A DNA stretch of 64,000 bases from Methanosarcina mazei S-6 (GTDB lineage Archaea > Halobacteriota > Methanosarcinia > Methanosarcinales > Methanosarcinaceae), in contig NZ_CP009512.1 of the NCBI RefSeq assembly GCF_000970205.1, positions 868,001 to 932,000 on the forward strand, in the 5' to 3' direction. Under the pieces are notes generated by a model. That model was not told where the DNA came from. It saw only the letters and a program-made list of their open reading frames with translations, and ran no database searches. Below, piece after piece: positions 27,815 through 59,947 of this stretch. Both the position numbers and the translations under genes were made by a program. Within the stretch, counting starts at the first letter, position 1, and each line of letters opens with the position of its first letter.

Positions 27815-27823
27815 AGGGTCACA

Positions 27824-30641: not shown

Positions 30642-31851
30642 TAGATAGTGCTCATGAAGTTGCAGTTCTAGCCGAAGCCCTTCGAAATCAAACTAACTGG
30701 AAGATTTGTGAAGTTAGTGGTTTTAGAAAGGACTCAATGGAAGATTCATTTGATATTCTTGTAGGGAACAAAGCCATTGAAGTTGGAATTGATTTTAAGG
30801 GAGAGTCTGCAATATCAAGATTGATATTTTCAGCACACAGTATAAGTGAGTTTTTACAACGTTTCGGTAGACTCAGAAATCCAATTAGTGGGGTAAAATA
30901 TAGGTCAGTTTGTTTTGCAGCTTCTGAGGTAGTAAATCACTTCGGCAGTTTTGAGAACTTATCAAGAGCCGAATTAGAAGAAAACATAAAATCTTCAATG
31001 CATGATCCAAAAATTATTGAGAACTTTAGATGGAGGTATGGTTACCTTGAAGCTTATGAGTATATATACAAAAATGCTTTTGGAATTGGTGTAAAAGAGG
31101 CAAGAATTAGTCAAAATGGATGTCAATTTCAACCACAGAAAGGAGGTTTACCATCAGATAAGAACGAAAATTATTTCCGCCAAGGTCTTGAGTTGATTAA
31201 AGAACATTTTTTTATTCATACAGGTCGGACTTCTCACGAGATTCTAGAATCTGTAGGATTTCTTGAGAAAACGACTAAATCTGAAATTCTGGATATTATC
31301 GAAGAACTCGGGAGTTTTAGAGGCAGCTCTCTAGACATAGCGTACTATGATCCTGAAAATGATCAATTTGGTCTTTACGATGTCTTTTTTCTTTTAAGAT
31401 GGGCTGAAATGGATATTCTCCCAAAAAAACAATTCAAGCGATCTGTCCCTGATAAATACCACAAAAAAATAGATGATGTCTCTGAACGAGTTGCAGGCTA
31501 TGTTATTATTAAGAATATTCTTGAAAAACCAAGATATGTGAAAATTGCTGGTAGAAACCTAAGTCAAATAGATTTTGGGGAATCTGAAAGGAAACCTGAA
31601 AAAGCTTATGGATTGCTGCCGGTTGTTGGAAAAAACAACTCTGAAGATTCTTTAGACATGTCTACAATAGTGAACAAAATTAAGTCAAAAGGATTTTTTT
31701 GTAGATACATGTCAAATACCTCTAAAATTTCAAAGAATTATTACAATATTGACGACTACACTGTACTTTTAAACTATAAGGATGGATGCTTGGCAATTGG
31801 TCTTGATGCGATTTATGTAGACTGCGTTATTCATAATTTACTTTCTACAAA

Positions 31852-32421
31852 GTGAGTGATTCTATGGATGAAGACTCTTTGGTCAATGTTTCCGACCTTA
31901 ACCAGTACCTTTACTGTGCTAGACGCCTTTATTATCTCATGTTTTATGATACACAGGAAATAAATTTTTACCTTGCAGATGGCCGTTCAAAACATAAAAA
32001 CAAAGGTAGGAGAGGCGGTTGGTATAAGGAAATTTACCTTAGATCTGAAAAACTCCAATTACATGGTAAAATTGACTTACTGGAAGGAAAAACAACTTTA
32101 ACTCCAGTAGAAAGTAAGCATGGCGATTCCTACTATGAAAATGATGAGGTTCAGTTGGCTGCTTACTGTATGCTCTTGGAAGATTATCTGGAAGAGCCAG
32201 TAACTTTTGGATATTTACATCTTTTTGGCACTAACGAACGCTATGCAATTCAGATAACAGATTGGCACAGAGAAGCGGTTCTGGATACAATTTCAGCAAT
32301 CCAGAATATGAAATTAAATAATATTCCTGATTTTGCAGATAATTTGAATAAGTGTAAAAAGTGCAGTGTGATTCAGTACTGCATGCCATTTGAAACAAAA
32401 ATACTGGAGAAGATAAAGTGA
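31852..32421 (+). CDS. cas4: CRISPR adaptation nuclease Cas4
   Basis: A 189-residue RecB-family exonuclease. An N-terminal cysteine lies in LNQYLYCARRLYY, the nuclease core is in KIDLLEGKTTLTPVESKHG (D and E-x-K), then DEVQLAAYCMLLE, and a C-terminal cysteine cluster KCKKCSVIQYCMP completes the iron-sulfur site. Cas4 helps Cas1-Cas2 choose protospacers beside a PAM. The GTG start at 31852 overlaps the cas3' stop, and the stop overlaps the cas1 start, so the genes form one operon. An internal promoter is not obvious, so the IS element upstream may reduce its expression. Confidence 0.9.
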   Translation: MSDSMDEDSLVNVSDLNQYLYCARRLYYLMFYDTQEINFYLADGRSKHKNKGRRGGWYKEIYLRSEKLQLHGKIDLLEGKTTLTPVESKHGDSYYENDEVQLAAYCMLLEDYLEEPVTFGYLHLFGTNERYAIQITDWHREAVLDTISAIQNMKLNNIPDFADNLNKCKKCSVIQYCMPFETKILEKIK

Positions 32422-33407
32422 AAGCGAGTGAGGGGATTCTGGACGACGATGTAATCTATGTGACAAAGCAGGGGTCAACTGTTGGAATTGACGGAGGGCG
32501 CATTTCTGTTTACCAGAAAGAAGAGGGAGAACTGGCTTCCTATCCAATAGGAAAGGTAAATACAATCAATATTTTCGGGAATGTTAATTTCACCACTCCT
32601 TTTGTTTCCCAGGCAAACGAACACGGGGTTACACTGAATTACTTTAATTTTTACGGGAAATACAGGGGCAGCTTTATACCTGAGCGTAATACCATTGCTG
32701 AAGTTCGAAGAAAGCAATACGCACTTACAGATTTCCAGAGCCTTGCAATCTCCCAGAGGATAATATCCGGAAAAATCCGAAATTCAAGAACTCTTTTGAG
32801 TCGGAAAGGTATCAAAGAACTTAAAATATTAGATGAGATCGAATCAAAAACTGCTGAAGTTAAGACTTCTGATGAACTGAGAGGCTACGAAGGTGAAGCT
32901 GCTGAATTCTATTTTAGGCATCTTAACAATTGCCTGATCGACGGCTGGACTTTTGAGAAAAGAACGAAAAGACCTCCTGAAGACCATATCAATGCTCTCA
33001 TGTCACTCACTTATACAATGATGAAAAATGAGGTTTTGAGTGCACTTAGACAGTACAATCTCGATCCTTACCTGGGAATTTTTCACGCTGACAGACATGG
33101 AAGGCCGGCTCTTGCACTCGATTTGATGGAGGAGTTTAGACCCGTTTTCTGTGATGCATTTGTGTTAAGGTTAATTAACCGTAAGGAATTGACACATGAT
33201 GATTTCCAGGTGGATAACCATCTGAAAGAACATCCGTTTAAAACATATCTCGCTAAGTTTGATGAATATATGCAAGAAGAATTTATGCATCCTCATTTTA
33301 AGTATCAGGTTTCCCGAAGAAAAGCGGTCAGGATGCAGGCAATATTACTACGAAAAGCTATCACAAACGAACTTCCTATGTATTATCCTCTGGTGTTTAA
33401 AAGATGA
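32418..33407 (+). CDS. cas1: CRISPR integrase Cas1
   Basis: A 329-residue Cas1. Catalytic positions are visible: the glutamate in YEGEAAEFYFRHL, the histidine in GIFHADRHGRPALALDLMEEFRP and the acidic pair near its end. An N-terminal beta-rich domain precedes the helical catalytic domain. With Cas2 it integrates new spacers at the leader end of the array that begins 380 bases downstream. The GTG start overlaps the cas4 stop and the stop overlaps the cas2 ATG. Full length. Confidence 0.93.
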   Translation: MKASEGILDDDVIYVTKQGSTVGIDGGRISVYQKEEGELASYPIGKVNTINIFGNVNFTTPFVSQANEHGVTLNYFNFYGKYRGSFIPERNTIAEVRRKQYALTDFQSLAISQRIISGKIRNSRTLLSRKGIKELKILDEIESKTAEVKTSDELRGYEGEAAEFYFRHLNNCLIDGWTFEKRTKRPPEDHINALMSLTYTMMKNEVLSALRQYNLDPYLGIFHADRHGRPALALDLMEEFRPVFCDAFVLRLINRKELTHDDFQVDNHLKEHPFKTYLAKFDEYMQEEFMHPHFKYQVSRRKAVRMQAILLRKAITNELPMYYPLVFKR

Positions 33408-33670
33408 GGCTAGTAGTTACATATGATATAAGCGACAATAAGATTCGTAACAGGGTTTATAGAATCCTTGAAAAATACGGTGCATGGAAACAGTACAGCG
33501 TATTCGAACTTGATATTACTGCAGTGCAACGTGTAGAAATGGAAGATGAAATCAAAACAGAAATTGAGTCTACTGATAAAGTACGCATCTATAGCCTTTG
33601 TGACCGTTGCGTAAAAAATATTGTAGACATCGGCCAAAAGACTCCAGATAAAAAGTCAAACATTGTTTAA
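33404..33670 (+). CDS. cas2: CRISPR adaptation protein Cas2
   Basis: An 88-residue ferredoxin-fold protein with the typical opening MRLVVTYDISDNKIRNRVYR, containing the conserved aspartate after the first strand, and the WKQYSVFELD strand. It dimerises between two Cas1 dimers in the integration complex. It is the last gene of the operon; the ATGA overlap with cas1 implies translational coupling. The CRISPR leader starts directly after its stop. Confidence 0.92.
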   Translation: MRLVVTYDISDNKIRNRVYRILEKYGAWKQYSVFELDITAVQRVEMEDEIKTEIESTDKVRIYSLCDRCVKNIVDIGQKTPDKKSNIV

Positions 33671-36700: not shown

Positions 36701-38212
36701 TGAAAGATCGCAATCGGTTAGAAAACTCGTTAGAGATTGAAACCTGTCCTCCCTCGACTTGTCGAAAACGGCGCAGAGGATCGCAATCGGTTAGAAAACT
36801 CGTTAGAGATTGAAACTTTCGGATGTTGAACATAACAAAAGCATTACAGGAAAATCGCAATCGGTTAGAAAACTCGTTAGAGATTGAAACGAACAATAAG
36901 TTATGACAGTTTCGATCAAAAAATTATATCGCAATCGGTTAGAAAACTCGTTAGAGATTGAAACTCCGTAAAAATGGATAGAACTGAAAAAACTGTATGG
37001 ATCGCAATCGGTTAGAAAACTCGTTAGAGATTGAAACACATCTACGATTAACTCATCATCTGAAAGCAGCCGCATCGCAATCGGTTAGAAAACTCGTTAG
37101 AGATTGAAACTTTCTCCTGGCAGTCTTTTGAACAGTATACATCTGCCATCGCAATCGGTTAGAAAACTCGTTAGAGATTGAAACCAATTTGAAACTACAC
37201 AGTTCTTAGAACCATCATACATCGCAATCGGTTAGAAAACTCGTTAGAGATTGAAACTCCATGGTTGAGGATGGGCAGATTAGAAACATAATAATCGCAA
37301 TCGGTTAGAAAACTCGTTAGAGATTGAAACTTCTCCGACAATTTCAAAGATATCTGAATTTCTGAGATCGCAATCGGTTAGAAAACTCGTTAGAGATTGA
37401 AACAGTAAAGGGGTGCTGTACGAGAGGGTAAACGGGAAAATCGCAATCGGTTAGAAAACTCGTTAGAGATTGAAACCCTTGATACTCGGCCTCTTGATCC
37501 AAAAAGAAAACAATCGCAATCGGTTAGAAAACTCGTTAGAGATTGAAACTATTTTATTGTAAGGGGTACGGATTCATAAGGGGTATATCGCAATCGGTTA
37601 GAAAACTCGTTAGAGATTGAAACGAATAAACCAAACGTTGTAATCCCCGCATACCAGTACATCGCAATCGGTTAGAAAACTCGTTAGAGATTGAAACTTG
37701 CAATATCCGCGAGAAGAGAGGAATATACTAGGATCGCAATCGGTTAGAAAACTCGTTAGAGATTGAAACCTCTGGAGTCCTCATGGCCACTTACAAGGGA
37801 GAATAATCGCAATCGGTTAGAAAACTCGTTAGAGATTGAAACTACAATTCCTTTCCCTAGCGCCGTCTGTATATCCAAATCGCAATCGGTTAGAAAACTC
37901 GTTAGAGATTGAAACACAGGAATTTCAAATAAGCCCTGCCCTCCTACTACATAATCGCAATCGGTTAGAAAACTCGTTAGAGATTGAAACTATATGGTAA
38001 TGTAGTTTTAGAAACCACAGGAGGAAATCGCAATCGGTTAGAAAACTCGTTAGAGATTGAAACTTGAATTTACTGAAAACTACGAACCGATTGTTTTTAA
38101 AATCGCAATCGGTTAGAAAACTCGTTAGAGATTGAAACATTAAAGTAAAACACGAACGCATGAATGCACTAATAGATTGCAATTGATTAGAAAACTCGTT
38201 AGAGATTAAGAG
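33787..38212 (+). CRISPR. Type I-D CRISPR array, 61 repeats and 60 spacers
   Basis: I count 60 apparently identical 37-base repeats (starting ATCGCAATCGG, ending GAGATTGAAAC) plus a degenerate last copy at 38176-38212. The repeat-to-repeat period is 69-78 bases, so spacers run about 32-41 bases. The final eight bases ATTGAAAC form the usual crRNA handle, and CAATC/GATTG inside the repeat can pair. One spacer occurs twice, at 35433-35470 and 35948-35985. The terminal repeat differs at several positions and loses its GAAAC end, marking the leader-distal end. ORFs drawn across the array are artefacts of the repeat. Confidence 0.97.
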
Positions 38213-39093: not shown

Positions 39094-39185
39094 CACAGTA
39101 AGGGATATACACATAGAGTAAATACTTAGACATTTTAAGCCTGTCATAGCTTTTCAACGTGTATTCTGACTTTTCGGATAGGTTC

Positions 39186-39275
39186 TAAAACAAGGATTGA
39201 AACTCTCCGAAACTCAGATATTTTTGAAATTCGGAGATATTCCCGAACAAGATCCACTAAAACAAGGATTGAAAC
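39186..39275 (+). CRISPR. Remnant of a second CRISPR array: truncated repeat, spacer, full repeat
   Basis: TAAAACAAGGATTGAAAC (to 39203) is the right half of a repeat whose left half is replaced by the end of the 976-bp element. A 35-base spacer (39204-39238) follows, then a full 37-base repeat at 39239-39275 (ATTCCCGAACAAGATCCACT, ending GGATTGAAAC). This repeat type is unlike the type I-D one except for the shared ATTGAAAC handle. It resembles the ATTCGCGAGCAAGATCC repeats I recall from Methanosarcina mazei. Confidence 0.85.
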
Positions 39276-39333
39276 CAGTTTTCCGGTGATGCCTTTCAGG
39301 CCTGAATAGAATCAACATTAGCAAACTTTAATG

Positions 39334-39728
39334 TATATCCCACATTCCGCGGTATTTTTTTCAAAAATCAATGATTTTCCCGACAGCGTTTTTCAAACAG
39401 AGTAAAGTAATTTTGGCCCATGATGGAACTTGGCGAATATTGAATGATATCGTTTTTTGGTCTCTAAATACACCATATTATTACTTCTGGGCAATGTCGC
39501 GAATTTGCTGTAATTCCAAGTTAATTTTTAGGAGACTGTATGCAAAACCAATCTATCGGTCTCGAATTTTTGACTCAAAAACTTCTTAAATTTGTAATTT
39601 TACAGAAAAATTGACACACTACCTGCTTTTGCCTACTGCATAAAAGTCCAATAAATCCACTTTTAATTGAAAATCGATAGCAAGAACAATTGTGAATATT
39701 CTAAACTTTACTGCGGAATGTGGGTATA
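39334..39728. mobile_element. Small inverted-repeat element (MITE-like), 395 bp
   Basis: Left end TATATCCCACATTCCGCGGT at 39334-39353 and right end TACTGCGGAATGTGGGTATA at 39709-39728 are inverted copies with two or three differences. The interior has no credible gene; a 72-codon ORF there shows no family features. It could be a non-autonomous element or the shell of a decayed insertion sequence. I could not define a target duplication. Confidence 0.55.
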
Positions 39729-39760
39729 TTTATTTATTCTATTATAACATATTATAATAC

Positions 39761-40012
39761 ATGTCTACTATAGCTATAGATCCGGATGTAAAGGAATCAC
39801 TTAAAGAGTTAAAGTTAGCTCCCGAAGAGTCTTATAATTCAGTAGTTAAGAGACTTATTGGGGAAGTTAAAAAGAAAGAAGATTACAGTCCTATGTTTCC
39901 AAAAGAAGAAAAACAAGGACATAAGGAATCTCATATAAATGATTTTGATGCCTGGTTAGAAAAGAAGCTGGTAGAAGATAAAAACATTTTAGATGCACTT
40001 GGAAGAAAGTGA
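39761..40012 (+). CDS. Antitoxin of a Doc-type toxin-antitoxin pair
   Basis: An 83-residue protein opening with STIAIDPDVKESLKELKLAPEESYNSVVKRLIGE, a ribbon-helix-helix/VapB-like layout seen in many archaeal antitoxins, followed by a charged tail ending AWLEKKLVEDKNILDALGRK. It overlaps the downstream Doc-like gene by about 20 bases, the usual antitoxin-first arrangement. The start ATG lies just after the small inverted-repeat element, whose AT-rich edge (39730-39757) probably contains the promoter. Confidence 0.7.
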   Translation: MSTIAIDPDVKESLKELKLAPEESYNSVVKRLIGEVKKKEDYSPMFPKEEKQGHKESHINDFDAWLEKKLVEDKNILDALGRK

Positions 40013-40403
40013 TGTTTTGATCAGCTTAATTGAGATTTTGAAAATTCATCAAAAGGTTATAGATTACGATAAATTTAAAGATCCGGATGATTATACACCC
40101 GCAATACGTTCTTTAGCTACTTTAGAATTAATGTTTGAATATTTGATAAAAGAATCCAATACTATTTTCGAAAATGCCGCTGTAATAGTCTACACTATTG
40201 TTGCAAAACATCCGTTTTTCAATGGAAATAAAAGAACTGGTTATGAAGCCATGAATTTTATTATTGAAGATGGAGGATACAGGTTTACGTCTACAGATGA
40301 AGAGATGATAGAATTCATAATTAGAGTGGCTACAACAGAAAATGAGATGTCAATTGAAGAAATAAAAGAATGGATAATTCGACATACGGAAAAAATACTA
40401 TAA
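39993..40403 (+). CDS. doc: Doc/Fic-family toxin
   Basis: A 136-residue Fic-fold toxin of the Doc type. The signature is VAKHPFFNGNKRTGYEAMNFI, close to the Doc motif HxFx(D/N)GNKR. Doc kinases phosphorylate elongation factor Tu in bacteria; related Fic enzymes add AMP. The histidine, asparagine and arginine needed are all present, so the toxin looks intact. A TTG at 40017 behind GAAAGTGAT is an alternative start and would remove the overlap with the antitoxin. The gene ends 36 bases before a solo CRISPR repeat. Confidence 0.82.
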   Translation: MHLEESDVLISLIEILKIHQKVIDYDKFKDPDDYTPAIRSLATLELMFEYLIKESNTIFENAAVIVYTIVAKHPFFNGNKRTGYEAMNFIIEDGGYRFTSTDEEMIEFIIRVATTENEMSIEEIKEWIIRHTEKIL

Positions 40404-40439
40404 CCTCGAATCAAAGAGATTTACAGGGTACAAGTAATA

Positions 40440-40476
40440 ATTCGCGAGCAAGATCCACTAAAATAAGGATTGAAAC
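40440..40476 (+). CRISPR. Solo repeat of the second CRISPR type
   Basis: A single 37-base repeat (ATTCGCGAGCAAGATCCACT, ending AAATAAGGATTGAAAC) with no partner within spacer distance. The 36 bases between the Doc stop codon and this repeat are spacer-sized, so a spacer may survive there. Confidence 0.85.
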
Positions 40477-40753
40477 GTGACCTGAATCTGATAGTTGCTC
40501 CAAAACGGCTCTTCAATGTTTCGAATGGTTAACTTAAATTTTCCTGGTATAGAAGTAGCATGCACAAAATATAGGAACAGATGTTGTTGAAAATCACATT
40601 CAAGCTTGATGTTCTCAATTTGATCTGAACATATTTTAACCAGGCAATTATTTTCAACCCACACAAAACAGTGAAGAGCCACAAACCTACCAGGGCAACT
40701 ACAAAAAAGGAAATAATGGCGATAATAATGGTTTTTGTTTTTGGTTTATTCAA
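40477..40753 (-). pseudogene. Broken gene for a membrane-anchored or exported small protein
   Basis: Minus-strand reading begins with TTG at 40753 and gives MNKPKTKTIIIAIISFFVVALVGLW as an N-terminal membrane segment. It then loses frame near 40672; the adjoining frame continues with a protein-like CFVWVENNCLVKICSDQIE and PGKFKLTIRNIEEPFWS. A one-base change explains the split. The reading then runs into the CRISPR repeat, so the 3' end is missing. Family not recognised. Confidence 0.45.
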
Positions 40754-40825
40754 TTGTTAATTTTTTATAGATCTCAACCGCTTTTTGAAATAAAACACGT
40801 TCAGTCCGACAACGCAGACGAGCGT

Positions 40826-41479
40826 CTAGGCGATCAGGAGTTCGGTCTGCTCCCTCGAAAAAAGTCCCACGAGAATCCCGACAAAGGCCCACCAGTGGGT
40901 GGCGAACACCACGGCGTTGCGCTTGCTTTGATAGAGTGCGTAGCCCGCAGAGAGCGCCGCGAGAAGCACGAGGAGCATTTGAAGATAGATTCCGAGCTGG
41001 GAGCTACTCTGGATGCCAAAGGAAAAAGCATACACGCCGATATTAGCTAGCACCGCAACGCTTGACCACCCCAGATACATCCCGACTCCGCCCTGCAGGA
41101 ATAGCTTCTCCTGGATATTCGCAAAACCCTGTTCCAATAGTTGGGGAAACGCCTTGAGCAAAGCGAAGTACATAAAGAGGAAAATGAGCACCGTCAACAG
41201 CAGCAATTCCCGCTCAGCCGCCATGAGCCAGAGGGTAAAACAGACGTATACCGACGAGAGCCAGAGATACACCGGCCTTGAAAATGTCCGTGTGCCAAAG
41301 AGATGCAGCAGCGCGTAGATGCTTGAAAACATGGTTATCACTCCCCAAATGGCAAAAGTATACCCGGCTGGGGTGATGAGCAGTTCATTGAAATTACTGC
41401 CTCCGCTAAAAGACGAGAAAAAAATGCTGAAAATCTGCGAAACCGCTGTGACAAAAAAGATGATTTTATAGATTCGCAT
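40826..41479 (-). CDS. TspO/MBR-like (tryptophan-rich sensory) membrane protein
   Basis: A 217-residue membrane protein with six or so hydrophobic segments. The segment LLITPAGYTFAIWGVIT resembles the conserved region of the TspO family, which binds porphyrins and other hydrophobic ligands; the later WSSVAVLANIGVYAF and ATHWWAFVGILVG segments fit as well. It is longer than classical TspO. The gene is visibly richer in G and C than its neighbours and sits alone between CRISPR fragments, suggesting horizontal acquisition from a different lineage. Role unknown. Confidence 0.62.
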   Translation of the reverse strand: MRIYKIIFFVTAVSQIFSIFFSSFSGGSNFNELLITPAGYTFAIWGVITMFSSIYALLHLFGTRTFSRPVYLWLSSVYVCFTLWLMAAERELLLLTVLIFLFMYFALLKAFPQLLEQGFANIQEKLFLQGGVGMYLGWSSVAVLANIGVYAFSFGIQSSSQLGIYLQMLLVLLAALSAGYALYQSKRNAVVFATHWWAFVGILVGLFSREQTELLIA

Positions 41480-41511
41480 ATTGTTATGGTTGGATGTTCA
41501 TAGCATTTTAA

Positions 41512-41735
41512 TTATTCTGCCCAAAGTTTGGCGATGTTCTTTTGAGTTTTTTGCCCGTAAATTTCAATCAGCATTTTGGCGTACTCGACGAGCATCCGCC
41601 CGGCTTCGATATCCTCCCCAATTTTTTTAGGATGGTGAGAGGCTGGAGAGGGATTTCATATTCATTAATCTTATTTGGCGAAATATTACCTTGGTCTCCG
41701 CCATCTGAAGCTACCTGAAAATAGTCGTAAATTCA
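41512..41735 (-). pseudogene. 3' remnant of a type I restriction specificity gene (hsdS)
   Basis: On the minus strand this reads YFQVASDGGDQGNIS, NKINEYEIPLQPL and, after a one-base frame change near 41640, PKKIGEDIEAG, AKMLIEIYGQKTQKNIAKLW and a stop. The middle piece matches the usual end of a target-recognition domain (ipLPpL), and the tail matches the terminal coiled coil of HsdS. No hsdM or hsdR is nearby. It is a relic in a defence-rich stretch. Confidence 0.5.
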
Positions 41736-41838
41736 TTAGAAAATAATATGACTTCAAAAAACTTTTGAAGTTTTTGTTCATTTGGTCTTACGAGACCAAC
41801 GCGCTGATTGAGAAGCAAACTATTAATTTGAGAAACAG

Positions 41839-41946
41839 ATTCGAGAGCATATCCACTAAAACAAGGATTGAAACTTGAGAGGATTCAAGCTCTCGCAGAT
41901 GGACGGGTTATTCGCGAGCAAAATCCATTAAAACAAGGATTGAAAC
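41839..41946 (+). CRISPR. Second-type CRISPR remnant: two repeats and one spacer
   Basis: A 36-base repeat (41839-41874, ATTCGAGAGCATATCCACT...) with several changes, a 35-base spacer (41875-41909) and a 37-base repeat (41910-41946, ATTCGCGAGCAAAATCCATT...). Same orientation as the other remnants. No leader or cas gene is nearby. Confidence 0.85.
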
Positions 41947-42082
41947 AGTCTCATTAATCCAAACCCAAAAAAGTACCTTTCGCCGGGTCAGAGCCCAAAC
42001 AAGGAACCTTTTTTTCCTTGTGGCTTTACCCTGCTATGTGTCTTCATGGAGCGGATCCGAAGGACGGCAGAAAAGGAAAAAC

Positions 42083-42433
42083 TTACTTCTTGTAACCAAA
42101 TACTTTATCGTATTTTTTATGATCGATTATATCAATCACTATTACGAGAGTTTCAACGCCCGAATTACCAGCTGTAAGTGTGTAAAGCATTCTCCAGAAG
42201 CCTGGGAGTTCCACTCTAAACAGGTTATTTACTCCATATTTGGTTTTATATTCTGAAGGAATTAATCTTTTAGCAACTGGATTTCCATAATGAACATCGT
42301 TTTTTATTAACTCTATTTTCTGATGAAAAGCATTAAGAATTGTCTCTTCCTGCTTTGAGTCCGAAGCCTTACTTATCAGATATTCGTATGCCTCCTCAGC
42401 TTCGGGAGTTAATCTTACACTTACACGCTCCAT
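42083..42433 (-). CDS. RelE/ParE-superfamily toxin
   Basis: A protein of about 116 residues with the RelE/ParE fold. The C-terminal strand pattern is clear: NNLFRVELPGFWRMLYTL, then VETLVIVIDIIDHKKYDKVFGYKK. Toxins of this group cut mRNA on the ribosome or poison gyrase; the basic and tyrosine residues near the end suit the mRNA-cutting type. I start at ATG 42433, preceded by GTGA; a GTG at 42442 is also in frame. It follows the 42446-42724 gene by a few bases on the same strand, giving an antitoxin-toxin pair. Confidence 0.72.
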   Translation of the reverse strand: MERVSVRLTPEAEEAYEYLISKASDSKQEETILNAFHQKIELIKNDVHYGNPVAKRLIPSEYKTKYGVNNLFRVELPGFWRMLYTLTAGNSGVETLVIVIDIIDHKKYDKVFGYKK

Positions 42434-42445
42434 GCTATTCACGTT

Positions 42446-42724
42446 TTATAGCTCGCGTCCGTAAATCGCAACATTCCTTAAATTATGATTTGTGTTGTGA
42501 ATCCAGGTTATCCCTCTTAACCCAACAGCTATTTTATTACTTTTTTCCAGGTATTCCAAAATAGTCATTAAAGTATTGTGGTTTACCTGCCGAGGAAGCG
42601 CTTTTTTTAGTTCCGGAATAGTTATAACACTATTTGGGCTGTTTTGTATAGCATCTTCTACCATAATAATAGTGTTAAGAGTTGGAGAAGGTTTTATCTT
42701 ATCAGAATTTAATGCCTCTGCCAT
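42446..42724 (-). CDS. Probable helix-turn-helix antitoxin
   Basis: A 92-residue protein that looks like a small winged-helix domain: TIIMVEDAIQNSPNSVITIPELKKALPRQVNHNTLMTILEYLEKSNKIAVGLRGITWI. This fits a DNA-binding antitoxin that represses its own operon. It lies immediately upstream of the RelE-like gene and is probably co-transcribed. I know of similar pairs in methanogens but cannot name the family. ATG at 42724. Confidence 0.65.
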   Translation of the reverse strand: MAEALNSDKIKPSPTLNTIIMVEDAIQNSPNSVITIPELKKALPRQVNHNTLMTILEYLEKSNKIAVGLRGITWIHNTNHNLRNVAIYGREL

Positions 42725-42945
42725 TTATTCACTTCCATAGATTTGAAATCATTATGTAAGAAATCATTATTAGTTAATAACTTATTTGCATCAATAAATA
42801 CCTGTGGTTTACGGTGACATCTGGCAGAAGAGACATTCCTTATTTTAAGAGGTGGATATGGCTTAATTCATTTCCGCTTTTTGCAGATCTCAACGGCTCT
42901 TACTATTTTTGCTCTTCCGTAGATCAAGATCTCTTCTCTATTCCT

Positions 42946-43062
42946 ATTCCCGATCAAGATCCACAAAAACAAGGATTGAAACTGTAATCTGTTCCGTGAA
43001 TCAATACAAACTGCTGAGACTTTTTATTCGCGAGCAAGATCCACTAAAACAAGGATTGAAAC
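42946..43062 (+). CRISPR. Second-type CRISPR remnant: two repeats and one spacer
   Basis: Repeats at 42946-42982 (ATTCCCGATCAAGATCCAC...) and 43026-43062 (ATTCGCGAGCAAGATCCACT...) enclose a 43-base spacer, longer than the others. The second matches what looks like the consensus. The end of the RNB gene lies 42 bases further on, which leaves room for one more spacer. Confidence 0.87.
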
Positions 43063-43104
43063 TAAAAAACCATGGCAGTTTTCACTACAACCTCGAGACC
43101 GGCA

Positions 43105-44904
43105 TCAACTTCCTGTCACTAAAGTGTATATCATTGCTCTGGCTGCTAGCCTTTTGGCCCTTTGCTTTTTTCCTGCCTGGCCGGTGCTGGTCGAGGAGCC
43201 AAAAGTACAGGTACAGGTGAAGATTGGCCTGTTGGTTGCGCCTTCCATCTCAAAGGAATAAGCTGGCAAGGGAAGTTTTTTTGCCTGACAGTATTCTTGC
43301 AGGGCAAAGATCGGGTCTTTTGACGTGTTAATTGTTGGGTCTTTTGACGCATTAATTGTTATTTCTTCCTGACTGGCTGGCGAATCTTCTATCCTGATCT
43401 TCAAGTTCGGAGCAGGTAAGCCCAGAATAGTTGCTAGAAGGCCTGCGGACGCTTGCTGCATGGCACCTTTTTTTGTCAGGTCTTCGTATGCAGCGGACCG
43501 GTACTCTCTGTCACCGATTCTAATTGCACTTATGGCGGTGAATGCAGGCAGGTTGCTTCGCGTAGTTTCTGTCACTTCGTATACTGGCATCTGCCAGCCC
43601 GATATATGTTGTGCGATGTCGAAGACCGAGACGGCTTTCTGAGGCGCGGTTGCGATATCCTCCAGCAGCGCTATTTTAAGCTCAGTCCATTTTTCGCCAT
43701 CAGGAGCTTGCAGGAGTACCAGCCCTGCGCAGATAACCGGCAGCTTGGCAAGGCGTTTCAGAAAGGCATCGAAATAAGCCTCGGGGCAGTCTTTACCCTC
43801 CCGGATCAGTACTTTGGTGATGCGCTCGAAGTCTGTATCGTTTGCATCTTCGATCCGATTACCCCGGATAGCCAACTCAGCTTCTTTATATGCCTTTTCC
43901 TTCATGTATTCGCTTTTAGCCCTGTCGTTTTCGATGTGCCTCATGTTGATATGCGATGCAATTGCCTGAATCTCTTCTTTAGAATGGGGCAAGGGCTCTT
44001 TTCGGATGTATGCACGGATCTGCTGGTGATTCACGAGATCAGCATACCTTCGGATGGGTGAGGTGAAGTGTGTATACGCTCCGAGGTTCAGTCCGAAATG
44101 GCCCATGATTACGGGGCCGTATTCCGCTCTATTGAGCATCATGTACGTGGTATGCCTGACGGCAGCTATGTTTACCTCAGGAATAAAAGCCATGCTTTCG
44201 AGCAACTTCAGCAAGTTCTCCCGCTCAGGGGTGGCACTCCGGGCTGTATGGTTACGGAAAAGAATAGGGATGTCATTTCTGACCGCATACTCTGCTATGG
44301 CCATGTTAGCGAGAATCATCAGCTCCTGGATGATAACGTAGCCTATGGTATCCCCTCTGCATCTCAACTGCCGCACCGACCCTTCTTCACTCGTCACCAG
44401 CCCCCTCCCCAGGTCGTAGAATGCGAGCGCTCCATGGCTACGGCGTTGCATTAAAAGGCCGCTTGTGAGCTGGCTTATGAGCTTGATGAGAGCATGCTGT
44501 GGGTGCTCTCTATCAGAGAGAATACGGGGGACGTCAGAGAATGCTAGCCGGGCTTCGCTTGTCATTATAGTCCGTAAAAGCCCTGTTTCGAGGATCGACA
44601 AATCTCTATTGAGGATAATATCCACGGCAAGGACATACTTCTCCTCTCCCGGCCATAGGGATAGCTTCCCGTCTGCGAGCCGCCTGGGTAACATCGGGCT
44701 GTTGCCGTTTGCATAATACCTGGTCTCGACCCGAGACATTGCAAATCTATCAAGCTCTGAATTTTTCGGAACGACCTTTGCGACGTCCGCAATCATGACC
44801 ACGACGTGCCAGCCCCCATTTTCCGTGACTTCCACCCAGATTGCATCATCCATGTCCCGTGTTGTCACGTCATCAATCGTAATACCTCTGAGCATATCCA
44901 GCAT
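43105..44904 (-). CDS. RNB-domain (RNase II/R-like) 3'-5' exonuclease with two C-terminal dsRNA-binding domains
   Basis: A protein of about 599 residues. The RNB catalytic domain starts at once: TIDDVTTRDMDDAI carries four aspartates (residues 11, 17, 19, 20 from the start used) with the spacing of the RNase II active site, and HFTSPIRRYADLVNHQ lies near residue 285. There is no cold-shock domain in front and no S1 domain behind. Instead two dsRNA-binding folds follow: one with PVYEVTETTR, PAFTAISAIR and TKKGAMQQASAGLL, and a terminal one with DPIFALQEYCQ, PAYSFEMEG and KKQRAKRLAARA, separated by a short SKDPTIN repeat. The gene is GC-rich. ATG 44904 lies about 30 bases past a TATA-like tract; an upstream TTG at 44922 is possible. 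Confidence 0.8.
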   Translation of the reverse strand: MLDMLRGITIDDVTTRDMDDAIWVEVTENGGWHVVVMIADVAKVVPKNSELDRFAMSRVETRYYANGNSPMLPRRLADGKLSLWPGEEKYVLAVDIILNRDLSILETGLLRTIMTSEARLAFSDVPRILSDREHPQHALIKLISQLTSGLLMQRRSHGALAFYDLGRGLVTSEEGSVRQLRCRGDTIGYVIIQELMILANMAIAEYAVRNDIPILFRNHTARSATPERENLLKLLESMAFIPEVNIAAVRHTTYMMLNRAEYGPVIMGHFGLNLGAYTHFTSPIRRYADLVNHQQIRAYIRKEPLPHSKEEIQAIASHINMRHIENDRAKSEYMKEKAYKEAELAIRGNRIEDANDTDFERITKVLIREGKDCPEAYFDAFLKRLAKLPVICAGLVLLQAPDGEKWTELKIALLEDIATAPQKAVSVFDIAQHISGWQMPVYEVTETTRSNLPAFTAISAIRIGDREYRSAAYEDLTKKGAMQQASAGLLATILGLPAPNLKIRIEDSPASQEEITINASKDPTINTSKDPIFALQEYCQAKKLPLPAYSFEMEGATNRPIFTCTCTFGSSTSTGQAGKKQRAKRLAARAMIYTLVTGS

Positions 44905-45192
44905 AATACCACTTAGGTGCAAAATTTGGTATGCTTTCCTTATATGTATATTGGTAGGTAAAAAAGTGGTAAGGGGTTCTTATTTTTATGAAAAATTGTT
45001 TCACAGATTTTGCTCATATTTATGTGAAGACGCGTAAAATCACTGAGCCTTTAGCTCACGGGATATAAGCTTCAACTTAAACCCTGATTCCGTATATAAT
45101 ATTCTGCTGGTTCCTTTGACATTTCCTATGCTAGACGAAAAATGTCCATCACTCAATAACGTATTTTCTCCCCAATAGAGCCTGTAGACTTA

Positions 45193-45253
45193 CCCTCGAT
45201 AGAGGGAGGAATGAAACAGGAAGCTTTCAGTCTTTAGCTGAGTGGTAGTTCAC
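45193..45253 (+). ncRNA. Second orphan IS605-type right end / omega-RNA-like segment
   Basis: It shares with 17152-17213 the CCCTC-GATA-GAGGG hairpin, the GAGGGAGGAATGAA stretch and the terminal GAGTGGTAGTTCAC. The second stem is weaker, and its loop TCTTTAG is the reverse complement of the loop CTAAAGA in the other copy. No transposase or tnpB is adjacent. Probably a solo element end; a functional guide RNA cannot be excluded. Confidence 0.45.
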
Positions 45254-45281
45254 GGACGTGAACTATAAAACGTGAATAAGC

Positions 45282-45479
45282 ATGAACATAAAAAGGACAG
45301 GTTATCCAGAAGAAATAAATGTTAGCTGGTATACAATGGACCCATTACATTACCCTGTGTTCAATCAAAATGATGGATATCTCGGTGCAGTTCTCAGCCA
45401 GAGTGGTTTCCTGAGCATGGAAAGGCTGGCAGAAGCTGTAAGAAAGGCAAAAGCAAAAATGGCCAGATATCCATGGTGA
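45282..45479 (+). CDS. Small hypothetical protein
   Basis: A 65-residue ORF with an ordinary amino-acid mix (EEINVSWYTMDPLHYPVFN, then GYLGAVLSQSGFLSMERLAEAVRKAKAKMARYPW). There is no clear ribosome site before the ATG, and no family is recognised. It begins about 30 bases after the omega-RNA-like segment and ends before a solo CRISPR repeat, so it may be a gene fragment caught in the patchwork. Confidence 0.35.
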   Translation: MNIKRTGYPEEINVSWYTMDPLHYPVFNQNDGYLGAVLSQSGFLSMERLAEAVRKAKAKMARYPW

Positions 45480-45536
45480 TTGATACGCATCAGGGGGTCC
45501 ATTCACACTCAACGAAATAATTACTCGTCCCCAAAT

Positions 45537-45573
45537 TTTCGCGAGCAAGATCCATTAAAACAAGGATTGAAAG
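45537..45573 (+). CRISPR. Solo repeat of the second CRISPR type, degenerate end
   Basis: A 37-base repeat starting TTTCGCGAGCAAGATCCATT and ending GGATTGAAAG, with both terminal bases altered. It is the last copy found in the window, 6.3 kb from the first. Terminal degeneration is what the distal end of an array usually shows. Confidence 0.8.
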
Positions 45574-48950: not shown

Positions 48951-49495
48951 ATTGGGTAATCTCCCAACAATAGAGTTATTTATTTCTGGCTATTTTCTTC
49001 TTATTATATAACTATGTTTTCACTTTTACTTGTTTTATTTTTCTTATTTTCTATCTAAATTCTCTACTATATGCGAAATATTTATGTATAAAAACGTATT
49101 TTTATTAAATAGCAAATCAAATTTACTTGATTTGTTCGCAAAACGGCATTTTCCTCCCCGAATCATTTTGCCATTCTAAACCTTTCCGTATCTGCAGTTT
49201 TCTGGAGCAGTTTGCCATTTTTACTCTCCTGAAATCTGCAGTTTTTCGGGATTCGGGAGCTAGATCTACTAGCACAGTGATTAATACAATTCCCAAAAAC
49301 AGGCTTTTTTGCAAGCCCTGGCGCAACTGCAATTGCAGGGATGGCGCTTGAGAACGGGTCTGACTTCTTCTTTTTACGGAAAAAGCTTGAAGAAATATAT
49401 AAATAAAAAATCTAAATAAAAAAGGTAAAAACGCTTTATTTTTAGAAAGCGTTTTATTCTGTGTATTTAATGCTTAAAAAATTCTAATTTAAGCC
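48951..49495. other. Intergenic region, nothing identified
   Basis: About 545 bases with AT-rich ends. The middle (49127-49351) is open in several frames but shows no protein family on either strand and no ribosome site. Nothing else seen. Confidence 0.45.
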
Positions 49496-49894
49496 TTATT
49501 CTGTGGTCACGCCGTCGAAGTCTGCTTCATTTGCTTCTGCTTCTTCTTTTGTGGCGCGCACGATCCCGTCTTTGTGGTGTGCCGGGGAATAGATTGTGTA
49601 GAGCTTCAGTTCTTCAGTGTTTGAGGTATTGATGACATTGTGCTCAGCACCTGCGGGTACGATAACTGCGACTCCGTCACTGAGTTCGTATTCGTTGCCG
49701 TCAATTATGCACTTGCCCTGTCCTGCCTCAAAACGGAAGAACTGGTCGTTTTCTTCGTGGACTTCCATTCCAATGTCTTCCCCTGGCTTAAGGGTCATTA
49801 ATACCAGCTGGCTGTGCTTTGAGGTGTAGAGAACCTTGCGGAAATTTTCATTTTCCAGAGTAGCATCTTCGATATTGATAGAAAATCCTTTCAT
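49496..49894 (-). CDS. Cupin-domain protein
   Basis: A 132-residue single-domain cupin. Motif 1 is seen around PGEDIGMEVHEENDQFFRFEAGQG and motif 2 around VIVPAGAEHNVINTS, giving two histidines and glutamates for a metal site. Such small cupins bind a metal and act as isomerases, dioxygenases or sensors; nothing here decides which. ATG 49894 is preferred over the in-frame TTG at 49903. The acidic C terminus (EEAEANEADFDG) is common in methanogen copies. Confidence 0.85.
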   Translation of the reverse strand: MKGFSINIEDATLENENFRKVLYTSKHSQLVLMTLKPGEDIGMEVHEENDQFFRFEAGQGKCIIDGNEYELSDGVAVIVPAGAEHNVINTSNTEELKLYTIYSPAHHKDGIVRATKEEAEANEADFDGVTTE

Positions 49895-50111
49895 GTTTTT
49901 CAATTAACGGTAATTGTATATAGAACTTTTGTGTGCTACAGCAGTTATTATATAAATTGAAACACAATATTTCCTTATTATGGGAAGGCTGATTATTTAT
50001 TGAAATGGGGGCAGGATCACTTTATATAAAAAATTAATTTTTCTAGCCAGAATAATAAAAATAATTCTTAATTACAGCCTATCTTTCTTTATCTAACAGG
50101 AGAGTACTTGC

Positions 50112-51747: not shown

Positions 51748-52028
51748 GGGTGCGGAAAAATAAGAAGAAACTGAAAGCCAAAGCCAGGTCTTAAAGGGAT
51801 GAAAGTAATCCCGGAGCTTTTTTAATATCTAATTTTTGTCTTCTCTTATTCTTATTTATTACAAATTTTTTATATGTCTGCTTTGGCCCGGAGCACCGTC
51901 CATTAACACGCATTAATAAAGTACTGAAGCAAATGGAAAGACTTATTTTATCTGTGGCTCTCGTTATTCAGGAGCAGAATCTATCTAATAATAATACTCC
52001 TGATCCCCTTATATCATGAGTGATAAAA

Positions 52029-53204
52029 ATGACCGGGAAAATAACCTATCTTGACGGACTGCGAGGTATAGCTGCAATAAATGTCATGATAATGCACTTT
52101 TTTGTTGCATTAGCCCCGGCTATGGTTTATGGCGATAAGTATCCTTCACACTTCGGAAGCCTGGACCATATTTTTTCTACCACGCCGCTCGGTCTGATCG
52201 GTGCAGGTAACTTTTCGGTCTGTATCTTCTTTGTCCTGAGCGGTTATGTTTTAACCCGGAAGTTTTTTCAAACGAAGGAAAACAGTATTGTCATAAGCAG
52301 TGCAGCACGTCGGTACCTGAGGTTGTTTGTTCCTGTATTTGCAGCAGTGATGTTCTCGTACTTATTGGCATCAACCGGGTTGTATCGTTACTACATTGAA
52401 ACCATGACGTTTGCTGCAGGCAGTAACTACCGGGACTACTGGACTTTTACGCCCGGCATTCTTGATGCAGTCAGGCAGGCAGCATGGAATTCTTTTTTTG
52501 TGGGAGGGGCAATTCCGTATAACCCGGTTCTATGGACAATGTCAATAGAATTTTACGGGTCCATGCTCGTCTTCACAATGGCATTATTATTCGGGTCTCT
52601 TCGAAACCGCTGGACTTTCTACCTTGCAGCAGTTCTGGCTTTAATTAATTTTTACTACCTTGCTTTTATAATAGGAATGGTCTTTGCAGACATATTCAGC
52701 AGTAAGAAATCGATATTTAAAACAGATAACAGGATAGTATTGTTTATCATACTGATCTCAGGGCTCTTTCTGGGTTCATATCCCATAAGCCCTCTGGCAG
52801 AGAATTCTGTGTACGGATTCCTGAATAATGGCTTTTTCAGAGATCCAAAAATGACCTATCATATCATAGGCGCAGGGATGGTAATGTATGTCTTATTGAA
52901 CAGCATCGACCTGCAGAAGGTTTTTTCTTCCCGTGTGCCTGTATTCCTCGGAAAAATATCCTATTCCCTGTACCTTGTGCATTTCCCCGTGATAAGCACT
53001 TTTAGCTGTGCATTGTTCCTTCTCCTGTATCCTGTATTCTCTTATGTGCAGGCTGTTTTAATTTCATTTGTTCTGTCTTTACTCCTTATTATACCGTTGA
53101 GCTATCTATTTTATAAGTACATTGATGTGGCAGGCGTAAAATTATCAAAGGAGTTTTATAGCCGGTTGTCCCGTCCTTTGATCCCGACAGTACAGGATAC
53201 ATAA
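52029..53204 (+). CDS. Acyltransferase 3 family membrane protein
   Basis: A protein of about 391 residues with ten or so membrane segments. The N-terminal signature ITYLDGLRGIAAINVMIMHFF contains the conserved arginine and histidine of acyltransferase 3 (OatA/NodX-like) enzymes, and FFVLSGYVLTRKFF follows. They move acyl groups across or at the membrane onto sugars of surface polymers. ATG 52029 follows GTGAT; an in-frame GTG at 52020 is the longer option. The substrate is unknown. Confidence 0.85.
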   Translation: MTGKITYLDGLRGIAAINVMIMHFFVALAPAMVYGDKYPSHFGSLDHIFSTTPLGLIGAGNFSVCIFFVLSGYVLTRKFFQTKENSIVISSAARRYLRLFVPVFAAVMFSYLLASTGLYRYYIETMTFAAGSNYRDYWTFTPGILDAVRQAAWNSFFVGGAIPYNPVLWTMSIEFYGSMLVFTMALLFGSLRNRWTFYLAAVLALINFYYLAFIIGMVFADIFSSKKSIFKTDNRIVLFIILISGLFLGSYPISPLAENSVYGFLNNGFFRDPKMTYHIIGAGMVMYVLLNSIDLQKVFSSRVPVFLGKISYSLYLVHFPVISTFSCALFLLLYPVFSYVQAVLISFVLSLLLIIPLSYLFYKYIDVAGVKLSKEFYSRLSRPLIPTVQDT

Positions 53205-56740: not shown

Positions 56741-57529
56741 TCTCACTTCTGCCAGCGTTCATTTCGACAAAGAAAGTTTGCCTCAATTATTTTAATCGAT
56801 AGTTCTGCTTGATCCTGATGCTGAGGAACTATCAGATAAAGCCCCCGGAAATAACCGGATTTACAACTGTTCAACAGGTTGAGGATAAGAAATCAAAAAG
56901 AGCATGTATTAATACGAAAGGCAAAGAGCATGTATTGATATAAAAGACACGTTTCTATATATTTTAATAAAACTTTTAATCTCCTGTATCCGGCAGGCGA
57001 AGTTTTATCCCTTGATCCTGAAAAAGGACGTCATACTGGCTTTGAACAGGAATTAGAAGTATCCGATTTTTTTATTCGAATTTTATCCACTCCTTTATAC
57101 GTCTCTGGTAAAGAGAAAAGGAAAAAGGTTGAAGGAAATTTAAGTAAAGTGTCCTGATCGGAACTGGCAGCGGGGGAACAAAAATAAATTGTATGCACAG
57201 AAGAATTAATTTGCAAACATATCCATAAAACGGAAGTTAAAACTCTAATTAGTCTCCAACGGATAATTATATGTACTATTTGAAAGCAAAAACAACCAGG
57301 ACAGAATAAGAGACTTATAACCATGGAAGGATGCCTTCTTCCTATTATTAATCCTAATGCATGATCCATTAGTTCGAATGCATAATCGGTTAGTTTGAAT
57401 GCATAATCCATTAGTTCAAATGCATAATCGGTTAGTTTGAATGCATAATCGGTTAGTTTGAATGCATAATCCATTAGTTCAAATGCATGATCCGCTAAAA
57501 CAGAAATTAAACTGTACTGCTGGAGGAAA
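56741..57529. other. Intergenic region
   Basis: Nearly 790 bases holding the tandem repeat at 57356-57497 and otherwise AT-rich sequence. No gene recognised. A minus-strand ORF here is a translation of the tandem repeat. Confidence 0.5.
57356..57497. repeat. 21-bp tandem repeat, six to seven copies
   Basis: The unit AATGCATAATCGGTTAGTTTG alternates with AATGCATAATCCATTAGTTCA. The two variants alternate irregularly, so the array probably grew by unequal exchange. The shared word AATCGGTTAG with the type I-D CRISPR repeat is probably chance. Confidence 0.85.
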
Positions 57530-57709: not shown

Positions 57710-59947
57710 ATGGCGCCAGTTGAAACAACGGAGAGGCTGGGGCGCAGCCTGGGTTTTTTCTCAACTTTTGCAATAGGCACCGGGACGATGATAGGAGCAG
57801 GCATATTTCTTCTTCCCGGAATTGCCATGGCAAACGCAGGTTCAGGAGCAATAATCTCATTCCTGCTGGGCGGGCTTATTACCATAGCCACATCCATAAG
57901 CATGGCAGAACTGGCAACAGGCATGCCTCTTGCGGGAGGCAGCTATTACTATATCAGCAGGACAATGGGAGCTGCATTCGGTGCGGTGATAGGTCTCGGC
58001 TCCTGGCTGGCACTGATATTTAAAGGCACATTTGCCCTCATAGGTCTGGCAGAATACGCTCAGATCTTTCATCCCATGCCAATATATCTGGTGGCGGCTG
58101 TTACGGGAGTGCTCCTCTTAATAATCAATTTCCGTGGGGCAAAAAGCAGTGGTTCCCTCCAGAACTTTATTGTTGTTATTTTGCTGCTAATACTGTTTGT
58201 ATTCATTGGAAAAGTGTCCTTCGAGGTCAGGCCTGAGAACCTTCTCCCGGTAGCTCCGCATGGGGTAGTATCCATATTCACCACGGCAGGTATGATTTTT
58301 ATCTCCTATCTCGGGCTGGCGGAAGCCGCTGCTGTTGCTGAAGAAGTGAAAAATCCGTCAAAGAACCTTCCCAGGGCATTTATCGCTTCAGCAGTTGTGG
58401 TAACACTTTTCTACGCAGGCATTATGGCTGTGGTTGCAGGTTTTTCAGGCCCTGAAGGGGGTGCGTCAACAGTGACCCCCCTGGCAGACATTGCAGGCTT
58501 TATTGCAGGTGATTCCGGGAAATTCTTTATTGCTTTTTCCGCCCTTCTTGCAACGCTTTCAACAGCTAATGGCGCCATACTGTCATCTTCAAGGTTCCCT
58601 TTCGCAATGAGCAGGGACGCATTGATGCCGAAATGGTTTGTCAGTATCCATAAAAAATATGAGACTCCTCATAATGCTATTCTGGTCACCGGGTCAGTAA
58701 TGGTTTTGCTCCTGTTTTTGTTTGACATAGAACAGCTGGCAAGACTTGGGGGGGCTTTCAACATTTTGATATTTATCCTGCTGAATATGGCAGTGATTAT
58801 CCTCAGGAAACGGACCCTGCCTGGCTATGAACCGACATTTCGGGACCCTTTTTTCCCTTTCACGCAGATCTTCGGGGTGGTCGGGAGTATGCTTCTGCTC
58901 CCTCTACTTGGTGGTTTGCCTTTACTTTTTTCCGTATTGATGATATTTGCCGGAGCCGGCTGGTACATGTTCTATGGAAAAGACAAAGCTATGCCTGCAT
59001 ATAACCTGTTTGACCTTCTGGAAAACAATGTAGAGAGGGTGAGCGCTGAACCGGAACCTGTTGGAAGGGTACTTGTGCCTGTTTCCAATCCCGGGCATGA
59101 AAGGGACCTCCTTAAACTGGCAGACCTTCTTGGAAATGAGATAATCTGTCTTCATGTTGTTGAGGTTCCAAGCCAGATCTCCCTTACAGTGGGTCAGGAA
59201 CTCTACCATGAGAAACAGATAGAAATAGACAGCCGTTTTCGGGATTATTTTGAGCAGTATCCTGCAAAATTCGGTAATAAAAGAGACTATATTGTTGCCT
59301 TTGACCACACAATCTCCAATTCGATTATAGAGCAGGCTGAAATAGAGAACGCTGACATAATTATAATGGGCTGGCACGATTCTAAGAGGTTCAAGTACTC
59401 TTTTGGAGACGTAACAAACGATGTTCTCCTTTCCTCGAAAAGCCAGATTGCACTTTTAAAAGGGCACCTGCCTGACAGCATCAAAAAGGTCCTTGTAGCC
59501 TATAACGGAAGAGAAAACTCCGTACACGGTCTTTCTCTGGCAAAAAAGATTGCTGAAAATACAGGGGCTTCAATAAGAATAATAAGCATTGTCAGCCCTG
59601 ATGAAGATCCGGAAAAGAAGGCAAAAATAGCTGAAGAACTTGAAGGGCTGGTTAAAAAGATCCCTTCCACACCTGCAAGCTTTAAACTTCTTGAAAGATA
59701 TTCTATCGAGGACGCAATACTTGAAGTCTCAAACGGTTACGACCTGACAATTATTGGGGATTCCAGTGAGAGATTCAAGATCTCTTTACTTGGAACACTA
59801 TCTCAGAGGATTGCCAGGCACGCGAGAAAGCCGGTAATGATAGTTAAAAAATCAAAGCCAATCTCAAAAGAAAGCCTGAATTATCTTCTGAAAAAATATG
59901 CCCGGAAAGCATATGCAAAGTTCAGGAAGGAAAAAGGCAGGGACTGA
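57710..59947 (+). CDS. APC-family permease fused to two UspA domains
   Basis: A 745-residue transporter. Residues about 10-430 are an amino acid/polyamine/organocation permease with some twelve membrane segments (GTGTMIGAGIFLLPG at the unwound substrate site of helix 1, then GSYYYISR). Residues about 450-595 and 600-730 are two universal-stress-protein domains (VGRVLVPVSNPGHERD, IIIMGWHDS; KVLVAYNGRENSVHGL, LTIIGDSSERFK, HARKPVMIVK). These cytosolic domains probably bind nucleotide and regulate transport. The substrate is unknown. It follows the 59-residue ORF without a gap. Confidence 0.9.
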   Translation: MAPVETTERLGRSLGFFSTFAIGTGTMIGAGIFLLPGIAMANAGSGAIISFLLGGLITIATSISMAELATGMPLAGGSYYYISRTMGAAFGAVIGLGSWLALIFKGTFALIGLAEYAQIFHPMPIYLVAAVTGVLLLIINFRGAKSSGSLQNFIVVILLLILFVFIGKVSFEVRPENLLPVAPHGVVSIFTTAGMIFISYLGLAEAAAVAEEVKNPSKNLPRAFIASAVVVTLFYAGIMAVVAGFSGPEGGASTVTPLADIAGFIAGDSGKFFIAFSALLATLSTANGAILSSSRFPFAMSRDALMPKWFVSIHKKYETPHNAILVTGSVMVLLLFLFDIEQLARLGGAFNILIFILLNMAVIILRKRTLPGYEPTFRDPFFPFTQIFGVVGSMLLLPLLGGLPLLFSVLMIFAGAGWYMFYGKDKAMPAYNLFDLLENNVERVSAEPEPVGRVLVPVSNPGHERDLLKLADLLGNEIICLHVVEVPSQISLTVGQELYHEKQIEIDSRFRDYFEQYPAKFGNKRDYIVAFDHTISNSIIEQAEIENADIIIMGWHDSKRFKYSFGDVTNDVLLSSKSQIALLKGHLPDSIKKVLVAYNGRENSVHGLSLAKKIAENTGASIRIISIVSPDEDPEKKAKIAEELEGLVKKIPSTPASFKLLERYSIEDAILEVSNGYDLTIIGDSSERFKISLLGTLSQRIARHARKPVMIVKKSKPISKESLNYLLKKYARKAYAKFRKEKGRD

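Follow-up and report, generated by a model that had tools for sequence, protein, structure and literature searches.

Genes between solitary CRISPR repeats in Methanosarcina mazei S-6: a probable trailer of an ancestral CRISPR locus

The DNA analyzed here, referred to as the window, is a stretch of 64,000 nucleotides of the Methanosarcina mazei S-6 genome (NZ_CP009512.1, positions 868,001 to 932,000). Eight copies of a 37-nt CRISPR repeat of the Rfam family CRISPR-DR7, direct and all on the + strand, start at positions 39185, 39239, 40440, 41839, 41910, 42946, 43026 and 45537. Seven of the eight reach the Rfam gathering score, and the first (R1, 39185..39203, +) comprises the 3' half of the repeat only (profile positions 19-37, 19.9 bits). 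The others are full repeats (R2, 39239..39275, with 52.6 bits in Rfam; R3, 40440..40476; R5, 41910..41946; R6, 42946..42982; R7, 43026..43062; R8, 45537..45573; all +), except for R4 (41839..41874, +), which is 36 nt long owing to one deletion. With a profile built from the repeats of the genus, the window copies scored 20-51 bits, compared with 11.2 bits for the best chance match in a control of 784 kb of reversed sequence. By the same measure, a degenerate ninth copy is present far downstream (R9, 57485..57511, +; 15.7 bits), and a repeat-like stretch at 49251-49281 (11.4 bits) is borderline. The count of eight repeats in one orientation over 6.4 kb, given in a preliminary description of this DNA, was thereby reproduced, with the qualification that R1 is a half and with R9 to be added. 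Three pairs enclose spacer-sized DNA, as had also been described, namely R1-R2 (39204..39238, +, 35 nt), R4-R5 (41875..41909, +, 35 nt) and R6-R7 (42983..43025, +, 43 nt); spacers in intact arrays mostly measure 33-39 nt. The remaining intervals extend over 1-2.5 kb instead of the regular unique spacers of about 36 nt that characterize a CRISPR array, and neither a matching cas operon nor a leader adjoins the repeats. The window repeats are a relic array, not a working one.

The long intervals contain genes. Between R2 and R3 lies a Doc module, in which a DUF7557/VapB-like antitoxin gene (39761..40012, +; Pfam VapB-type antitoxin, 1e-5) overlaps a Doc/Fic toxin gene (39993..40403, +; Pfam Fic/DOC, 2e-11), the arrangement of a type II toxin-antitoxin system; R3 starts 36 nt after the Doc stop codon. 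The same module includes a MITE-like element with terminal inverted repeats CCACATTCCGCGGTA (39340..39727), read from the sequence and multi-copy in the genus. The next interval holds a second MITE-like element (40503..40681), likewise recognized by reading and missing from the corresponding module of genome G011, as well as a membrane protein gene (40826..41479, -), whose module recurs inside a live array of G011 with 95% identity. Between R5 and R6, a ParE/RelE-like toxin gene (42083..42442, -; Pfam 0.0049, under the Pfam cut-off) is accompanied by a partner gene (42446..42724, -) that is, by its position, the probable antitoxin. The interval from R7 to R8 is occupied by an RNB-dsRBD exoribonuclease gene (43105..44922, -), whose RNB domain (Pfam RNB 7e-66, dsrm 1e-14) places the product in the RNase II/R family, with RNase R as its best solved structural relative, and by a further MITE-like stretch between this gene and R8 (45018..45177), found to be multi-copy in a DNA search of the genus. 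All of these MITE-like elements sit within intervals between repeats. Beyond R8 follow a cupin gene (49496..49903, -), an acyltransferase_3 gene (52020..53204, +) and an amino-acid permease gene (57710..59947, +), the last being chromosomal flank at which the trailer ends. From the cargo listed in the preliminary description, the Doc and RNB-dsRBD modules stand, and so does the RelE-type module at its weak Pfam match (0.005). The membrane protein is TspO-like by eye only and has no Pfam match, and in the Rfam search of the window no RNA family besides the repeats, omega-RNA included, attained its gathering score.

M. mazei has been reported to possess type I-B and type III-C CRISPR systems (PMC7465815). 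In the genome analyzed here (4.14 Mb; 4,142,816 bases, one contig), the repeat occurs at just two places, the window and an intact array of 73 copies at 1,620,230-1,625,486, 0.7 Mb from the window, with type III-C genes (Cas10c, Cmr, Cas6b) on its trailer side. Repeats occurring singly at random, which had been named in advance as an argument against a split array, were not seen in the source genome. Compared with the published arrays, the genus and the two types are the same, here with one repeat family; the window repeats differ in being solo or paired, without cas operon and leader, and in having genes between them. The earlier statement that no matching cas genes are near is right for the window, but in sister species a type I-B operon lies directly upstream of the array, and the source genome has its type III-C genes beside the intact array. 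The CRISPR system neighbouring the window repeats (26810-33670) is of a different type, with a Csc2 gene (a type I-D marker), Cas4, Cas1 and Cas2. Situated between genes of this system, a transposase pair (29448-30579) may have disrupted the cas3-like gene.

The locus was compared across the genus by a DNA search of 31 genomes, one per species, which returned 22 loci in 20 genomes; open reading frames were called in a simple manner, and related loci entered as counts. In many species, a type I-B cas operon is followed by an intact array of 40-121 repeats and then, on the trailer side, by a series of Doc toxin-antitoxin, repeat, variable genes, RNB-dsRBD, repeat, cupin, repeat, acyltransferase, repeat, small genes, repeat and permease, with individual genes absent in some species. 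Such trailers of decaying solo repeats on the same strand reach up to ~29 kb, with the solo repeats almost exclusively on the trailer side; there is no fossil trailer behind the arrays of G006 and G029, and next to none behind that of G018. The window keeps the series from Doc (39761) to the permease (57710), with R9 at the distal end of the trailer, but with the operon, the leader and the intact array gone. Its left flank occurs without repeats in G030, and the homology with this genome stops exactly where the half-repeat R1 starts. From this comparison of sequences, the window appears to be the trailer of the ancestral locus minus its operon and array, with the break inside R1, which would join the left flank to the place of the lost elements. 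The left border at 39185 was also considered as the end of a multi-copy IS; this was rejected, with just one weak second copy in the source genome. The earlier idea that one array was split is supported by sister species, in which this gene series is found next to an intact array with the same repeat, and by fossil spacers common to several species.

Two of these fossil spacers are 100% identical between G005 and G030 and one is common to G007 and G020 (97% over 38 nt), while weaker matches link G009 with G010, G009 with G023, G020 with G023 and G003 with G005. The shared fossil spacers are remains of arrays that were inherited from common ancestors or exchanged. Beside 13 arrays with equal flanks considered on both sides, the trailer sides contain 76 solo or degenerate repeats, compared with 2 for the leader sides, and none is on the opposite strand (binomial P = 2e-20 for trailer versus leader, an overstated value since the loci are related). 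The farther a repeat lies from the array, the lower its score tends to be (Spearman -0.42, n=87); the trend is clear in G007 and G023, but some loci do not show it. A variant repeat (GTCGAGAGGTAGCTTCCACTAAAACAAGGATTGAAAC-like) is interspersed with the fossil repeats of G005, G008, G030 and the G000 main array. The leader-distal repeats of CRISPR arrays are in general old and degenerate. For Sulfolobus, the trailer ends of arrays have been treated previously (PMC2946923). Unlike ordinary degenerate ends, the zone described here is about 29 kb long and contains conserved, selected genes in a fixed order across the genus.

This fixed order could in principle mean that the genes were there first and that repeats were added among them later. 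A conserved gene order predating the repeats had been named beforehand as an argument against a split array, and the order is indeed conserved in many species. However, those species carry repeats in the same series, together with the shared fossil spacers, and in the source genome no repeats are scattered elsewhere. In addition, homologues of the RNB gene were found in 11/112 genomes of the family, and all 11 are in this trailer. A late arrival of the repeats is therefore unsupported, and we assign it hardly any probability.

The borders of the modules carry further information. In five species, the RNB gene ends 43-44 nt from the adjoining repeat, homology reaches the repeat, and past it every species differs; in several species, R7 bounds the RNB module on the left. 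Similarly, a repeat follows Doc at 28-92 nt across species, and Doc homology extends as far as a repeat and ends at it. In G020, a single repeat closes Doc and opens RNB, at a place where the window has two further modules. In G009, the RNB gene sits between the array and the first fossil repeats. Repeat borders are thus common to several species on one side, but the position of the left Doc border varies between G007, G013 and G020, and the modules are therefore not fixed cassettes. From the earlier suggestion that the repeats serve as landing sites for cargo, the repeat-bounded, modular placement is retained, whereas active landing sites are plausible only.

One alternative explanation could be plain decay, in which unrelated elements (IS, MITEs, stray genes) inserted at random into an old array without any involvement of the repeats. 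A trailer is expected to be neutral ground, MITE-like elements are indeed present in the window, and other species show degenerate repeats and one IS-like interval. Random insertion should, however, split repeats about half the time, because repeat and spacer are about equally long. A half-repeat trace was seen in just 2/49 gene-length intervals (G007 and G023), and complementary halves of one split repeat flanked none of the 49. Moreover, 13 intervals of other species showed no convincing terminal inverted repeats at the module borders, as would be typical of transposons or MITEs, and the same gene families recur between repeats. These observations make random peppering doubtful, and we give it a rather small chance.

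Pfam analysis of 230 trailer genes revealed 10 Fic/Doc genes with 10 antitoxins, 9 RNB, 9 cupin and 6 acyltransferase genes. Among 230 leader-side genes, cas genes are prominent and Fic/Doc is not among the 25 commonest families listed per batch. Of the 12 close copies of Doc, 10 are flanked on both sides by repeats in trailers, and the other 2 are located on contigs without detected repeats. The first module behind the intact array is a toxin-antitoxin system in six species (Doc in G004, G007, G013, G020 and G030, and a RelE-type pair, read from the sequence, in G023) and RNB in G003 and G012. In one trailer, two closely similar Doc pairs (L042:10332-11050 and 13499-14217) enclose a HicAB-like and a RelE-type pair.

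Comparison with the window copies yielded dN/dS values of 0.07-0.12 for the Doc toxin (0.22 for one distant copy), 0.10-0.18 for its antitoxin (0.38 for one distant copy), 0.11-0.22 for the RelE-type pair (toxin 0.14-0.22, partner 0.11-0.13), 0.15-0.21 for RNB and 0.02-0.12 for the cupin. Judged by these ratios, which are well below 1, the trailer genes are under purifying selection while the repeats decay. Between the window and G020, dS increases stepwise along the series, with values of 0.24 for Doc, 0.37 for RNB, 0.75 for the cupin and 0.92 for the permease. This increase away from Doc fits younger or exchanged modules near the array, though codon usage could contribute.

Altogether, we consider it likely, at a probability of about 70%, that the window contains the trailer of an ancestral CRISPR locus that was orphaned and is turning into a fossil through repeat-respecting gene capture and repeat-repeat deletion, the genes being kept between the scars of former repeats either by selection or by addiction. 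As an array grows at its leader, the old end would no longer matter as memory. DNA entering this end between whole repeats might then be kept only if it pays or is addictive, as could apply to the Doc and RelE-type toxin-antitoxins, the RNB RNase and the cupin. Recombination between identical repeats would delete neighbouring spacers and could fuse modules, remove them or swap them, with single repeats remaining as scars, much as retroelements leave solo LTRs. Since a deletion that removes a toxin-antitoxin module would be selected against, these modules might mark where array turnover stops, and the stretch beyond them would drift into the fossil record. A counterpoint to anchoring by addiction is that RNB and the cupin are not addictive. 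Viewed across the genus, this single CRISPR locus offers a fossil record in layers, each of which allows genes, spacers and repeats to be compared. It is relevant to the open question of which factors restrict the turnover of CRISPR arrays and the length they reach. Should toxin-antitoxin modules be the limiting factor, array stability would partly be an effect of addiction.

For the entry of genes into the trailer, the most likely routes would be homologous exchange through the repeats, for which repeat-bearing viruses are a possible vehicle, or over-long inserts made by the adaptation machinery. The live G011 array contains five inserts of 179-483 bp between intact repeats, which hold small complete genes. 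One gene family of 70 aa is found with unlike right ends in three of these inserts and in one interval on another contig, giving four copies of this unknown family between the repeats of one genome (L047:4528-8576 and L058:14497-14679). In one of the G011 inserts, a second gene is truncated at the repeat. Judging by their sequence, the G011 inserts look like captured fragments. They would suit a process in which Cas1-Cas2 integrated foreign DNA of gene length at the leader, with one repeat duplication per event, and array growth then displaced the surviving inserts to the trailer; the absence of terminal inverted repeats agrees with this as well. On the other hand, normal spacers vary little in size (1129 spacers, 32-58 nt), no insert is located at a leader end and no PAM was found. 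A donor of the G011 inserts was also missing from IMG/VR, phages and the 112 family genomes, and over-long spacer capture is therefore indistinguishable from exchange through repeats. As an account of the trailer, we regard over-long spacers as unlikely.

With respect to possible vehicles, an IMG/VR contig with genes for the large and small terminase carries a mini-array of two full repeats around a 36-nt spacer (L183:2055-2164), and a second IMG/VR contig has the same mini-array stretch (L185:211-320). Related terminases are encoded in Methanosarcina genomes, reaching 60% identity in partial alignments and 56% in alignments that cover most of the length. Viruses of this kind may carry repeats through which exchange could run. 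Mini-CRISPR arrays borne by viruses are a known phenomenon. Solitary repeat units on viruses have been described before (PMC10651486); the IMG/VR contig resembles them in bearing host-type repeats on a virus, whereas the window copies are chromosomal and separated by genes. Matches of array spacers to the repeat-bearing virus were of chance length only, as in the reversed control. On a 93-kb viral contig from IMG/VR, a solitary partial repeat (L184:6310-6336, 33.6 bits) lies between genes.

A broader, tentative possibility is that Methanosarcina CRISPR repeats act as integron-like exchange sites, with viruses or the adaptation machinery bringing the genes and toxin-antitoxins anchoring the array against its own recombinational erosion. 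Integron cassettes are modules of one or two genes separated by repeats, with toxin-antitoxins among them and an exchangeable order. The trailer is alike in its modular, repeat-separated genes, but its borders are not fixed, recombination through the repeats is what we infer, and no integrase gene was seen among the 25 commonest Pfam families listed per batch for trailer genes. If modules do travel through repeats, CRISPR arrays would also be a route of gene gain. For toxin-antitoxins as stabilizing elements there is a precedent in Sulfolobales, in which vapBC pairs are interspersed among cas genes and a role in maintenance was proposed (PMC4390879). In both cases, toxin-antitoxin pairs are linked to a CRISPR locus, and maintenance is the role proposed for them; here, however, Doc, RelE-type and HicAB-like systems are placed between trailer repeats. 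Within the open-access literature, no paper on genes between repeats in this genus or on a genus-wide trailer was found, which is weak evidence, with subscription journals mostly outside its scope.

Finally, solo repeats might be regulatory, as in CreTA modules, in which degenerate ectopic repeats, possibly paired, accompany an RNA antitoxin (PMC9458426, PMC8501985). The repeat pairs would then make guide RNAs that control a toxin and thereby guard the CRISPR system. The window shares degenerate ectopic repeats near a toxin with these modules, and the pairs R1-R2, R4-R5 and R6-R7 adjoin toxin genes. However, the toxin pairs encode protein antitoxins, and no seed match of a fossil spacer to a nearby toxin promoter was found. 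Compared with shuffled spacers, 0/3 fossil spacers gave a better seed-anchored match nearby, leaving aside those of R1-R2 to a spacer of the other array and to its own inverted copy. There is also no sign of hairpin constraint in the fossil repeats: of 67 relics, 78-81% retain the stem pairs, and the mutation frequency of stem positions is close to that of the remaining positions. Regulation of this kind is accordingly very improbable in the window, and solo repeats need not be regulatory. The resemblance just mentioned connects spacer 37299-37333 (-) of the window's other array with the fossil spacer R1-R2 at 39204-39238 (+), with agreement at 27/35 positions compared with 21 for the best of the shuffled spacers; the two arrays, though unlike each other, may both have taken spacers from one family of invaders.
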